In this document: piece by piece, positions 56,021 through 64,000 of the stretch | Numbering within the stretch: the first letter of the stretch is position 1 | Layout: each line of letters starts with the position of its first letter | DNA from: Desulfuromonadales bacterium | Lineage (GTDB): Bacteria; Desulfobacterota; Desulfuromonadia; Geobacterales; Pseudopelobacteraceae | Reading direction: 5' to 3' | DNA length: 64,000 nt | Assembly: GCA_013349405.1 (NCBI GenBank) | Contig: DUZS01000012.1 | Coordinates: forward strand, 1 to 64,000 | Position numbers and translations under genes: made by a program | The notes under the pieces: model-generated | The model's input: the letters and a program-made list of their open reading frames with translations, nothing else | The model's database searches: none | Told to the model about the DNA's origin: nothing

Positions 56021-56284
56021 ATGCAGACAATTACCGCAACCGATCTTTCCCGCAATTTTCGCGTCATGCTCAATCGAGTCGAATTCCAGCACGAAGAGTT
56101 GTTAATCGTTCGCAATAATTTCCCTGTCGCCCGGCTTATTCCCGGCCCTGCAACCATGACTGCCGCTGAAGCATTTGGCGACCTCTATCGTACTCTGCCT
56201 GCGGATGCGGGTAAAACCTGGCTTACCGACAGTCGCCTTGACGATAACTGTGACAGCGAGGTGCGTGATCCATGGGTTTCCTGA
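56021..56284 (+). CDS. Phd/YefM-type antitoxin
   Basis: MQTITATDLSRNFRVMLNRVEFQHEELLIVRNNFPVARLIPG; overlaps PIN toxin ORF. Confidence 0.85.
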   Translation: MQTITATDLSRNFRVMLNRVEFQHEELLIVRNNFPVARLIPGPATMTAAEAFGDLYRTLPADAGKTWLTDSRLDDNCDSEVRDPWVS

Positions 56285-56676
56285 TTGATACCTGTATCTG
56301 GATTGATGTCGAGCAGGGAAACCTTGCCCCTGCTGATATTGTTGCCGTCACCGGAGTAGAGCCGGTCTATCTCTCTCCGGTCACCATCGCCGAGCTGAAA
56401 TTCGGTGCCGAATGTGCGGCAACACCGGCGATCCGCCAGCAACGCCTGGCTTCGCTTGCCAGAATACGGGTTAAACCGGTTCTGCGGATTGATGAAACCA
56501 CCGGAGAAATCTTTGGTTCGCTTGCCGCTCAATTGAAAGCCGGTGGAAAGAATCCGCGGCCCCGCATACAGGATCTCTGGCTTGCCAGTCAGGCGGTTCA
56601 GCATGGTTTTTCGCTCCTTACCCGCAATGTAAAAGATTTTGCTGACATTCCGGGGTTAGTTGTAGTGACGGTGTAA
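56272..56676 (+). CDS. vapC: VapC-like PIN domain toxin
   Basis: MGFLIDTCIWIDVEQG; acidic residues and RPRIQDLWLASQAVQHGFSLLTRNVKDFADIPGL. Confidence 0.9.
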   Translation: MGFLIDTCIWIDVEQGNLAPADIVAVTGVEPVYLSPVTIAELKFGAECAATPAIRQQRLASLARIRVKPVLRIDETTGEIFGSLAAQLKAGGKNPRPRIQDLWLASQAVQHGFSLLTRNVKDFADIPGLVVVTV

Positions 56677-57459: not shown

Positions 57460-57756
57460 CTAGGCAAGTTCTACTTTCAAACGTTTTCCAAGTGCCAGAG
57501 CTGCCCTTTCGAGAGTCTGTAATGTTACGGAAACATTCCCAGGGTCGAGCAATCTGTCAAGTGCCGAGCGGCTTGTGTGCATTTTGTGTGCAAGTGCAGT
57601 TTTTGAGAGATTTGATTTCTGCATCTCCTGCTCAATTTGATACGCGACAACTCGCTTGATTGCTGTGGCCTCCACGTCAGCCAGCAAACCTTCCTCTTGC
57701 AGAAAATCGTCAAAGTTTGATCCCGAGTGAATGTTGTTCATTGTTTGTTCCTCCAA
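57460..57756 (-). CDS. higA: HigA-like XRE antitoxin
   Basis: MQKSNLSKTALAHKMHTSRSALDRLLDPGNVSVTLQTLERAALALGKRLKVEL; overlaps upstream toxin. Confidence 0.87.
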   Translation of the reverse strand: MEEQTMNNIHSGSNFDDFLQEEGLLADVEATAIKRVVAYQIEQEMQKSNLSKTALAHKMHTSRSALDRLLDPGNVSVTLQTLERAALALGKRLKVELA

Positions 57757-58094
57757 TAGTTACCGAGTCTTACTGTTGCCGTTTTGAGTTCGTTTAGTGG
57801 TGTCTTATTTGATTTCTTGATGAATCCATGAAGCAGAATCATCTGGCTTCCATCGACGGTGAATAAAACCCGCGCTATGCCGTCCGGCAATGATGAGCGG
57901 ACTTCCCACAGGTTCTTGTCCATTTTTCTGATAAGCGGCATTCCCAAAGGCCAGCCAAGTTGAGCTGTTTTGATGTCTTCACCAATAATTCGCTTATCGT
58001 CTCGGGGAAGTCCTTTCAGCCAGTCACGTACCGGCTCATTTCCGGCATCGGTACGATAAAAGTTCACAGTAAGGATGAAATTGGTCTGTTCCAC
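57738..58094 (-). CDS. higB: HigB/Gp49-like RelE-superfamily toxin
   Basis: YRTDAGNEPVRDWLKGLPRDDKRIIGEDIKTAQLGWPLGMPLIRKMDKNLWEVRSSLPDGIARVLF. Confidence 0.9.
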   Translation of the reverse strand: MEQTNFILTVNFYRTDAGNEPVRDWLKGLPRDDKRIIGEDIKTAQLGWPLGMPLIRKMDKNLWEVRSSLPDGIARVLFTVDGSQMILLHGFIKKSNKTPLNELKTATVRLGNYWRNKQ

Positions 58095-58400: not shown

Positions 58401-58715
58401 TCAAATCAAGGCCTGAATTCCCTTACGATCAAGAATATTCAATAATTTTTGTGAAGGGCCGCCGGGGTGTTTTTCACCAATCTCCCATTTCTGAATCGTG
58501 GACAAGCTCGTGTTCAGTATAGACGCCATGACCGCCTGGCTAATTCGGTACCGTTCCCGTAGTGATTTTATCTGTTCGGATGAATAATCGGGAACCGGTG
58601 GAACACATAGAGTGTCGTAACGCTCCATTGATTGTTTACTAACAATGCCAAGACGGCAAAGGTCGGACGCAGTTTCATGTACAGCGTCAAGGATGCTACT
58701 GGTTTGCTTCCTCAT
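58401..58715 (-). CDS. XRE family antitoxin-like regulator
   Basis: EQIKSLRERYRISQAVMASILNTSLSTIQKWEIGEKHPGGPSQKLLNIL. Confidence 0.88.
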   Translation of the reverse strand: MRKQTSSILDAVHETASDLCRLGIVSKQSMERYDTLCVPPVPDYSSEQIKSLRERYRISQAVMASILNTSLSTIQKWEIGEKHPGGPSQKLLNILDRKGIQALI

Positions 58716-59076
58716 CGTTTACCTCCAGTAAGGCACCATCAATAACTGCTTGTCGGATCTGTTCTTCTTTCATGGAAAGAAGGTCGTCGGCAAGTAACTG
58801 AAGAGCCTCAAGTTCTTTTGTTGAAATATTCGCCCGTTCGTTTTTCTCAAATCCAAACACGAAAAACCATCGATTATTACGGTTGGTAGCCAACAATGTT
58901 CGAACGCTACCGCTTTTGCCTCTTCCCGGCAGTGCAATTCTTTTTTTGTAGACGCCACCACCGAGATCAGCGTCAACAAGTCCCATCACCATCTCTGCTA
59001 CTGCATGGCATAACAACTTATCGACCAATCCCGCCTTACGAGCCCAACGATCAAATTTTCGGGTTTTGATAATCAT
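58696..59076 (-). CDS. RelE-type toxin
   Basis: KTRKFDRWARKAGLVDKLLCHAVAEMVMGLVDADLGGGVYKKRIALPGRGKSGSVRTLLATNRNNRWFFVFGFEKNERANIS. Confidence 0.9.
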   Translation of the reverse strand: MIIKTRKFDRWARKAGLVDKLLCHAVAEMVMGLVDADLGGGVYKKRIALPGRGKSGSVRTLLATNRNNRWFFVFGFEKNERANISTKELEALQLLADDLLSMKEEQIRQAVIDGALLEVNDEEANQ

Positions 59077-60917: not shown

Positions 60918-62216
60918 TTAAATCCCTTGGGAATTAAGGATGCCTTGACCTGCTAGATCCTGTCGCACAATCGCCTCCAGGGAGGCGTCCAGCATGGCGC
61001 GGCGGCAGTCAACACCGTTGATTGCGGCGGTTTTGAGCAGGCGGAAGAAACGGCAGCCACCGAAACAGAGCGGCAGATAGGCACACTCCAGGCATTCATC
61101 GTTTTTCCAGACGTCGAGGTTGTGGGATTCGCGGTAGTCGCTGATACTGTCGGCGAGGGTGCTGATGGCGTATTCGGGCCACCCCATCAAGGCGGGACAT
61201 TTGTAGAGCGAACCGTCATAGTTGACTACCAGGTTGTTGGTCAGTTCGATCATGCAGACACCCATGTGTGGCTTATCCACGGCAAAGCCGCGTCGCAGGG
61301 TTTCCTTACGCAGAAAGAGGTGTGCCTCAATCAGCCATGGTTCGCTGCCGATGGCACAAGAGGCGCTGTGCGGATCATGTCCGCCGGATTTTGGATGCAC
61401 AGGGGAAAATTGCACCGGCCCCAGTTGTGCCGGATCAATACCGGCTTCGAGCAGCGCATCAAACATGGCCGGAAACTCGCGGTAGTTTTCCCGGGTGAAA
61501 TTACCACCCGGTTTGAGAGTAATGAGATCACAGACAGCACACAGATTGTCCACGATTATTTGAAAACTCCCCTCCCCGGAAACAAAAGGGCGCTGACGAT
61601 TATGTACCGCCGCCGGTCCATCAAGCGTTATTTGCGCACTACGCAGTCCGAACGGCAGCAACTCCTCCACAACGGCACGGGTTAGCAGCGTGGCATTGGT
61701 GACCAGGCTACAGAAGAATTCAGTACCGGCGCTGACTGCTGCCTCCTGCACAGCACCGGCAATGTCCTTGAGTCGCGGGATCGCCATGAGTGGTTCGCCA
61801 CCGTAAAAGCGGAGTTCCACGTCACGGCCATGCTGGATTTGTTCACGCATTATATACTCGACCAGAAGCCGGGCTGTCTCTTCGCTCATAGCGTGGGCAC
61901 CGCGAAAGTGATCTTCAAAGCAATAGGGACAGGCGAGGTTGCAATCCAGGGTCAGGACCACCGTTGCCATAAACTTCCCGGAACAGCTATTGGTCTGATC
62001 AATCAAATGTATCATGGCTTCCCGCTCTGCCAGCGGGTCGTCTACCCAGAGTTCCAGACGCCGTAGTGTACCTCGATCCGACTCTGATAAAGAGCCGTCT
62101 CTGGCAGTGGCAAGAAATTCTTCCGGTACCCTGACCACCGAGCCTTTTCTGGTCGAGTAGAGCAGTACGTAACCGGGACGGTCAGGGTATATTTTCATGT
62201 AACGGGAAAGTGGCAT
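60918..62216 (-). CDS. Radical SAM/SPASM RiPP maturase (geopeptide-maturase-like)
   Basis: CNLACPYCFEDHF cluster motif; SPASM region CPALMGWPEYAIS...CLECAYLPLCFGGCRFF; start MPLSRYMKIYPD preceded by GGAG. Confidence 0.88.
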   Translation of the reverse strand: MPLSRYMKIYPDRPGYVLLYSTRKGSVVRVPEEFLATARDGSLSESDRGTLRRLELWVDDPLAEREAMIHLIDQTNSCSGKFMATVVLTLDCNLACPYCFEDHFRGAHAMSEETARLLVEYIMREQIQHGRDVELRFYGGEPLMAIPRLKDIAGAVQEAAVSAGTEFFCSLVTNATLLTRAVVEELLPFGLRSAQITLDGPAAVHNRQRPFVSGEGSFQIIVDNLCAVCDLITLKPGGNFTRENYREFPAMFDALLEAGIDPAQLGPVQFSPVHPKSGGHDPHSASCAIGSEPWLIEAHLFLRKETLRRGFAVDKPHMGVCMIELTNNLVVNYDGSLYKCPALMGWPEYAISTLADSISDYRESHNLDVWKNDECLECAYLPLCFGGCRFFRLLKTAAINGVDCRRAMLDASLEAIVRQDLAGQGILNSQGI

Positions 62217-62225
62217 AGTTGCTCC

Positions 62226-62254
62226 AAAAAAAATGGGGAGCATATGCTCCCCAT
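62226..62254 (-). terminator. Intrinsic terminator/attenuator between precursor peptide and maturase
   Basis: 22-nt perfect palindrome ATGGGGAGCATATGCTCCCCAT followed on the minus strand by TTTTTTT. Confidence 0.8.
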
Positions 62255-62276
62255 CGCAGGGTTAACGACAGATGCA

Positions 62277-62366
62277 TTAGCTGCGTACGCTTGAAACACC
62301 GCCGGTACAGCAGGCACTGACTACTTCCGTATTCTCCACCCCTTCATCCAAAATTTCGATTGACAT
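62277..62366 (-). CDS. RiPP precursor peptide (geopeptide-like), 29 aa
   Basis: Translates to MSIEILDEGVENTEVVSACCTGGVSSVRS*; GGGAGG upstream of ATG; immediately upstream of the radical SAM/SPASM gene; below the ORF-track length cut-off. Confidence 0.8.
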   Translation of the reverse strand: MSIEILDEGVENTEVVSACCTGGVSSVRS

Positions 62367-62502
62367 GAATTTATCCTCCCTGTGGATTGGTACCATTCGG
62401 TTAGAATGGCCTTAATCAGGTTTTGATAATAGACAAAGCCGCCAAATTAGGCTATAAGTTTTTGCCCTCAAGCTCAGTCATTGCTATTTCAGGAGTCATT
62501 AG

Positions 62503-64000
62503 TTGCGACGTATCGTGTGTCAAGAACTGCTTTTTGCCCTGCTGGTACTCCTGCTCAGCGGTGTTATGCCTGTTTTTGCCGCCGATGAATCCATTGATGT
62601 TCTTGGTTTTGTAGAACCTGAAAAAGCACTTGTATCCACCTACCGTAATCCCCACCCAAGCTCAAAGATTGCCGAAAACATCACAGTCATCACTGCTTCT
62701 GATATCGAACGCCTCAATGCCCACACTCTAGCCGAGGTGCTGCAGACTGTTCCCGGCATTGTATTCGATTACATGCGCACCCCAGCGACCTTCAGTGGCT
62801 TCAACGTTCAAGGTGCATATGCCTCCTCTGTACTGGTGCTGTTAGATGGAATCCGTCAGAACAGCTATAACGCAGGGTCTGCTATTCCCATCCTGATTCC
62901 GGTGCAGCAGATCGAACGGGTCGAGATCATCAAGGGTGCGGCCTCTGCCGCCTGGGGATCTGCGCTTGGCGGCGTGATCAATATCATCACCAAAACGCCA
63001 AACCCGGATCGTCAAATGTCCGGAATGGTTTCCGGATCGGTTGGCTCGCAGTTCACCGGTGACTCCCGTGCCGAGCTTAGCGGCACCCTGGATCGCCTTG
63101 GTTACTACCTGACCGCTGGAAATATCCGCTCAAACGGTCTTACCCCCAACAGCGCCACCAACATGAATCACCTACACGGCAAGCTCACCTATCGCCTCCC
63201 CGGCAGTGGGACGGTGACATTGGGTCTGTCACAGCTTGGCAATCACCACGGTCTGGACGAAGCGGACATGACGTCCAGTCGGGGGATATGGACTCATGAT
63301 AAAAACGAGTTCCACCGTAGCAGCGGCTATTTCAAGCTCAATCAGCCGTTAGGCAGCGAACTGACCCTTGATGTTAGCGGCAATTTCCTCCGTTTTGATG
63401 AGCATTTCTTTTGGGGAGAGCTTGATAACCAAGGTGGAGCAATATTTACCAATGATCTTACTGAACGCGCTACAGCCCGTGACGGTAGTGCCCGCCTGAC
63501 CTGGGGTGACGGCCAGCGCAATCTGGTAACCGGTGTTGAATACGGCCATGTAAAATCTCGTGGTGGCGACCTGCTCCACTTGCCGCTAAACTACGACCGG
63601 AGCTTTGACCATTCGGCAATTTACGGCAACGGCACCTGGACGATCAATCAACTGACGATTCTCCCCGGCTTCCGTCTCGACAAGACCGGTATATCCGGCG
63701 ATAAAACCAGCTATACTCTCGGCGCAACCTATCAACTTGCCGAGTCCACGACGCTGCGCGGCTACTACGCAGATGGTTTCAACCTGCCGCTACTGGGCTA
63801 TTCTACCGATCTTCAACGGATTAAGACGTCCCAGCTCGGTTTGGAGAGTGGTGCAATTCCCTATCTTTGGCTGAAGGGCACCTGGTTCTTCAACACCTTG
63901 CGCGATAGTCAGTCTGCAATGCTTATAACCACCAATCAGGATCGTCAGGGGTTTGAGCTTGAAGCCAGCACCACCCCGGTTTACAACGTGTCGCTCACCA
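62503..64000 (+). CDS. TonB-dependent outer-membrane receptor (partial, runs off window)
   Basis: TTG start after AGGAG: LRRIVCQELLFALLVLLLSGVMPVFAADESIDVLG; plug domain ENITVITASDIERLNAHTLAEVLQTVPGIVFDYM; open frame read through the plug region. Confidence 0.85.
   Translation, partial: MRRIVCQELLFALLVLLLSGVMPVFAADESIDVLGFVEPEKALVSTYRNPHPSSKIAENITVITASDIERLNAHTLAEVLQTVPGIVFDYMRTPATFSGFNVQGAYASSVLVLLDGIRQNSYNAGSAIPILIPVQQIERVEIIKGAASAAWGSALGGVINIITKTPNPDRQMSGMVSGSVGSQFTGDSRAELSGTLDRLGYYLTAGNIRSNGLTPNSATNMNHLHGKLTYRLPGSGTVTLGLSQLGNHHGLDEADMTSSRGIWTHDKNEFHRSSGYFKLNQPLGSELTLDVSGNFLRFDEHFFWGELDNQGGAIFTNDLTERATARDGSARLTWGDGQRNLVTGVEYGHVKSRGGDLLHLPLNYDRSFDHSAIYGNGTWTINQLTILPGFRLDKTGISGDKTSYTLGATYQLAESTTLRGYYADGFNLPLLGYSTDLQRIKTSQLGLESGAIPYLWLKGTWFFNTLRDSQSAMLITTNQDRQGFELEASTTPVYNVSLT

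Follow-up and report, generated by a model that had tools for sequence, protein, structure and literature searches.

A putative geopeptide locus with a linked receptor and binding protein in a Desulfuromonadales bacterium, and its possible role in self-sensing

The window analysed here (the whole stretch of 64,000 nucleotides from contig DUZS01000012.1 of a Desulfuromonadales bacterium) encodes a 29-aa peptide which, judged by its sequence, is a geopeptide precursor and so adds one more member to that class. The genes found as neighbours in about 140 related loci suggest that the producing bacteria may release such peptides, take them up again and sense them. The favoured account, namely an exported geopeptide RiPP that is recaptured through its own receptor and cassette and acts as a self-sensed polymorphic signal, is given an even chance of being right. 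The receptor/sensor cassette was absent from the preliminary description of this DNA, and it is the neighbourhood that says most about function. Geopeptides were named from sequence; with a receptor, a binding protein and a kinase conserved beside it, this orphan RiPP acquires a function that is specific enough to be tested.

Searches of the open literature for geopeptide, TIGR04229 and TIGR04280 returned only unrelated words (e.g. gageopeptide) and no paper on geopeptide chemistry or role, in line with the preliminary description, which had held modification and function to be uncharacterised; subscription literature could still contain some. A geopeptide with a linked receptor/sensor cassette was likewise not described in the open papers searched, and a prior account could exist in subscription literature.

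Precursor and maturase genes

The features of the locus are as follows (C12 is the contig carrying the window).

60918..62216, minus strand: geopeptide maturase, radical SAM/SPASM, 432 aa (TIGR04280, 634 bits)
62226..62254, minus strand: terminator-like hairpin, GGGGAGC-ATAT-GCTCCCC stem and 8-T run (fold z -3.06)
62277..62366, minus strand: predicted geopeptide precursor, 29 aa (TIGR04229, 29.9 bits, and conservation)
62367..62502, no strand: divergent intergenic region between the precursor and receptor genes (alignment of close relatives)
62375..62380, minus strand: Shine-Dalgarno GGGAGG, 8 nt ahead of the precursor ATG
62503..64000, continuing to C12:64365, plus strand: TonB-dependent receptor, 620 aa (Plug and barrel domains)
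C12:64365-65255, beyond the window and immediately after the receptor: PF04392 periplasmic binding protein

The minus-strand translation of 62277-62366 is exactly MSIEILDEGVENTEVVSACCTGGVSSVRS followed by a stop codon (29 codons), as had been claimed, and consists of a leader (MSIEILDEGVENTEVVSA), the invariant Cys19-Cys20 and the tail TGGVSSVRS. The GGGAGG that had been pointed out ahead of the ATG is present, and an AGG-rich Shine-Dalgarno is kept in most close relatives. The position directly upstream of a radical SAM/SPASM gene was also correct, 60 nt separating the peptide stop from the maturase ATG. All 17 aligned maturase homologues begin at the position of the ATG at 62216 (MPLSRY); a start further upstream, at the ATG at 62243 within the hairpin, was therefore rejected.

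Assignment to the geopeptide class, which the preliminary description had based on layout and core and had proposed to check by HMM search, is borne out by the NCBIfam models. The maturase scored 634.2 bits against TIGR04280 (geopeptide radical SAM maturase, cut-off 400 bits), with model positions 1-426 of 428 aligned, and is the one protein over this cut-off in the genome. The precursor aligned with the whole TIGR04229 (geopeptide) model, positions 1-22, at E 3.3e-7, and its score falls 0.1 bit short of the curated cut-off of 30 bits, so that automatic annotation would overlook it. The earlier label "unlisted" does not hold for the class, which is already in databases under these two models.

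Elsewhere in the window, three toxin-antitoxin-type pairs were observed within 3 kb: Phd/YefM-like and PIN genes at 56021-56676, HTH and Gp49-like (DUF891) genes at 57460-58094, and HTH and RelE-like (PF06296) genes at 58401-59076.

Conservation of the precursor

The preliminary description had made its proposal depend on conservation of the 29-aa ORF beside homologous maturases, and such conservation was found. A profile-free motif ([LIV]x[VI]L-x-x-G...CC) was searched over 2.3 Mb, the expectation being the background in the rest of the same loci: an ORF with the motif lies upstream, on the same strand, of 130 of the 145 homologous maturases (0.57 expected), and about ten of the 24 matches elsewhere are plainly further geopeptides. 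For the class-level comparison about 120 loci were retrieved, and a profile seeded with the window peptide detected precursors upstream of 115 of 126 maturases. The TIGR04229 threshold was passed by 13 of 100 distinct family precursors; the geopeptide family is therefore much wider than annotated, which suggests that most geopeptide genes have been left unannotated.

Only the leader motif [LIV]x[VI]L-x-x-G (VL[DE]EG) and the Cys-Cys pair are fixed across 128 distinct peptides, the leader Gly being present in 126 of 127 anchored peptides and CC in 126 of 128 (CxC in the other two). Positional entropy is 0.07 bits at the leader Gly and 0 to 0.23 bits at CC, versus 3.1 to 3.7 bits in the tail, a hypervariable segment of 6-15 residues which reads CCTGGxxSxR in the window's clade and CCWxxFxxY in others. 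Of the ACCTGG core and the Cys-Cys/Gly-Gly core proposed earlier, the CC is thus family-wide, whereas ACCTGG as a whole is clade-specific; Gly-Gly, clade-specific among the 128 peptides and outside the general core, was rejected as a core motif. The pN/pS ratio calculated from ten relatives is 0.34 for leader and CC and 0.63 for the tail; by this measure the leader codons are under purifying selection.

A tandem geopeptide array was observed at loci L104 and L123 (genome G187, contig C1), with two maturases and several near-identical precursors; beside them are a single set of receptor and binding protein and a further protein of 506 aa.

Maturase and predicted crosslink

By alignment, the radical SAM CxxxCxxC motif of the maturase is formed by C92, C96 and C99, and the SPASM region contains seven invariant cysteines (321, 340, 375, 378, 384, 388 and 404). 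In the structure model (mean pLDDT 81.8), a beta3-alpha domain at the N-terminus precedes the radical SAM barrel and the SPASM region. The first 78 residues are modelled as three strands followed by helices, with a pLDDT of about 90 over most of them, and this domain appears RRE-like in the model. CteB is the best PDB match both by sequence and by fold. Two otherwise high-scoring maturases of other genomes (G164:C1:1021298-1022569 and G217:C17:44496-45773) have one in-frame stop each (TGA and TAG, respectively), possibly through recent decay or sequencing error.

The Cys-centred modification that the preliminary description had put forward we infer as well, as it is consistent with the invariant CC and with a SPASM maturase whose closest solved relative is CteB. 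An Asp or Glu occurs after CC in 9 of 128 precursors, the window peptide having none, and this rarity argues against acceptors of the ranthipeptide type. Given this rarity, and as no residue identity is conserved at the acceptor positions, the bonds would most likely be sactionine-like thioethers between the two Cys sulfurs and carbons of the backbone in the short tail. The two Cys-x-Cys precursors (loci L187 and L149) offer a natural test of the crosslink.

Intergenic elements

The hairpin sits between precursor and maturase in the window, and comparable hairpins between the genes occur in 57 of 111 loci (2.7 in shuffles); from its sequence it is probably a leaky terminator giving an excess of precursor. 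Upstream of the precursor, a block TAGC(A)AAT...TTTGTCTA (62410-62460, minus strand) is partly conserved in close relatives and may be a promoter or regulator site. Of 115 loci, 22 have a sigma54-type site before the peptide (5.9 in shuffles) and 18 have one that faces the receptor (4.9 in shuffles), and no sigma54-like site was found ahead of the peptide in the window copy. A sigma54 promoter as a universal feature was accordingly rejected, the sites being enriched in a minority of loci and some lineages.

Receptor and sensor cassette

The neighbours of the window locus are an ammonium transporter, the TonB receptor, the binding protein and a TPR/DUF11 protein. When the neighbours of 116 loci were clustered, the commonest partner was a TonB-dependent receptor (110 loci), ahead of a PF04392 periplasmic binding protein (90), a HAMP histidine kinase (88) and an NtrC-type sigma54 regulator (52); the binding protein is typically followed by the kinase. 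The genome of the window carries its cognate kinase away from the locus, on contig C1 (53% identity). No exporter, leader protease, immunity or metal-handling gene is conserved among the neighbours of these 116 loci; an ABC importer was rejected, as neither a permease nor an ATPase is among them. Identification of the receptor as BtuB or another named receptor was rejected as well, all NCBIfam matches lying far below cut-off. The nearest solved structure to the binding protein is 3lft, which is L-Trp-bound, and the protein resembles TrpX, so that its ligand may be a small molecule and not a peptide.

Within the class, the maturase is over cut-off in 101 of 277 genomes, all from one order and several with two or more copies; in a sample of the phylum it is over cut-off in 31 of 395 genomes, many of them outside the class. 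Twenty loci of such outside genomes, from 11 families, were compared: all 20 have a recognisable precursor, 19 an adjacent receptor and 18 a binding protein. Strands and gene order vary among these loci, and where receptor or binding protein is lacking the contig is short or the locus sits at its end. Retention of gene content while order changes is good evidence of functional linkage. The binding protein was detected in 111 genomes of the order, and the rest of the class almost entirely lacks it: among about 140 genomes of the order, both genes are present in 98, the maturase only in 5, the binding protein only in 13 and neither in about 24 (Fisher p 4e-13, shared ancestry ignored).

Several genomes encode the receptor and binding protein (some also the kinase) although their assemblies yielded no maturase (e.g. 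loci L219 and L220, genome G247), and such receiver-only loci are as expected for a shared extracellular ligand. Cassettes of receptor and PF04392 protein, some with kinase, with no maturase or precursor nearby were observed at L219, L220, L227, L229, L235 and L238, the genome of L238 having a complete geopeptide locus elsewhere. Ligand-receptor co-evolution was assessed by a partial Mantel test in which maturase distance was controlled; the tail/receptor correlation (r 0.27) is no better than that of leader and receptor (0.31), so that the test gives nothing specific to co-evolution of ligand and receptor.

Proposed function and alternatives

In the proposed mechanism, the N-terminal domain of the maturase encoded next door would bind the acidic [LIV]E[VI]LDEG leader, and the enzyme would modify the invariant Cys-Cys by thioethers to tail backbone carbons, while the leaky terminator between the genes would provide more precursor than enzyme. 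The trimmed product would be exported by machinery encoded outside the locus and would re-enter through the TonB-dependent receptor, whose gene is divergent from that of the precursor; once in the periplasm it would be read by the PF04392 binding protein and the HAMP sensor kinase, which with the NtrC-type regulator would control the peptide and receptor genes, a feedback on the locus. Counting against this proposal are the lack of a conserved exporter or leader protease, the likeness of the binding protein to Trp-binding proteins, the unlinked kinase of the window's genome and its peptide gene without a sigma54-like site, and the partial Mantel result, in which the tail fares no better than the leader. 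The wide sharing of the cassette could also reflect co-regulation without a ligand relation.

A self-sensed, polymorphic signal is favoured over a nutrient scavenger. In a metallophore role, the crosslinked Cys-Cys peptide would be secreted, bind metal and return through the TonB receptor, the binding protein and kinase sensing the loaded form. The two invariant cysteines and a layout matching that of methanobactin operons (precursor, maturation enzymes, TonB transporter and regulator; PMC3621798) speak for it, and receptor-only cassettes in relatives would suit chelator piracy; but metal binding would be weak if both Cys become thioethers, the tails are without conserved donor residues and no conserved metal-handling gene is nearby, and we consider this role rather doubtful.

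In another reading, judged unlikely, some unrelated compound from outside is what the cassette senses, its tie to the geopeptide is one of regulation only, and the peptide is an output such as an antimicrobial or cell-surface agent. The receptor/binding-protein/kinase module does occur without a maturase, the fold of the binding protein matches a Trp-bound protein, and a hypervariable tail would also suit an antimicrobial arms race; however, the tight, rearrangement-proof link with the receptor exceeds what regulation alone needs, and no immunity or export gene is conserved at the locus. It is highly improbable that the peptide is converted to a redox cofactor or small messenger for use inside the cell, in the way PqqA gives PQQ, with the receptor importing something else: PQQ-type systems do pair one tiny precursor with a single radical SAM/SPASM enzyme, but a cofactor requires an invariant product and the geopeptide tail differs in almost every species, only CC being fixed.

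For the self-sensed signal that we prefer, a broader and more tentative extension is that geopeptides form a large family of polymorphic RiPP pheromones in Gram-negative bacteria, with private tails, a dedicated TonB receptor, a binding protein and two-component readout, and some relatives being receiver-only. Should the product bind the receptor and induce its own locus, then Geobacterales and relatives, key members of communities that reduce metals and produce electricity, would possess a modified-peptide system working through a receptor, for which few descriptions exist in Gram-negatives.

Comparison with known systems

The TIGR04229 / TIGR04280 geopeptide models share with the window locus the leader and Cys-Cys, a full-length maturase match and the adjacency of the two genes; they do not cover the receptor/sensor cassette. 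The thioether-forming CteB (5WGG/5WHY) has the same radical SAM and SPASM fold as the geopeptide maturase at about 19% identity, but its substrate is a SCIFF peptide with six Cys, in contrast to the invariant CC and short variable tail of the geopeptide. The defining feature of sactipeptides is a thioether from Cys S to an alpha-carbon, and the likeness of geopeptides to them is a prediction from sequence; ranthipeptides of the PapB type have an Asp/Glu acceptor downstream of each Cys, residues that are rare in geopeptide tails. TrpX-type binding proteins (PF04392, NF041285; PDB 3lft, 6hni) resemble the cassette protein in fold and by a weak sequence match (40.7 bits against a TrpX cut-off of 390), but the cassette protein accompanies a receptor and kinase, without an ABC permease or ATPase.

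The closest functional analogy is with methanobactin operons, in which a short Cys-containing precursor, maturation enzyme(s), a TonB-dependent transporter and a regulatory system are found in one locus (MbnA, MbnB/C, MbnT and MbnI/R; PMC3621798), and for which re-entry and sensing of the metal-loaded peptide have been proposed. The geopeptide locus differs in having a radical SAM/SPASM enzyme and not the MbnB/MbnC that mark methanobactins, neither of which is present at the window locus; in its regulation, by a two-component kinase and NtrC-type regulator and not by sigma/anti-sigma factors; and in having no conserved exporter where methanobactin operons have a MATE exporter. By this analogy, recapture and sensing of the geopeptide through its own receptor would be the best reading of the locus.
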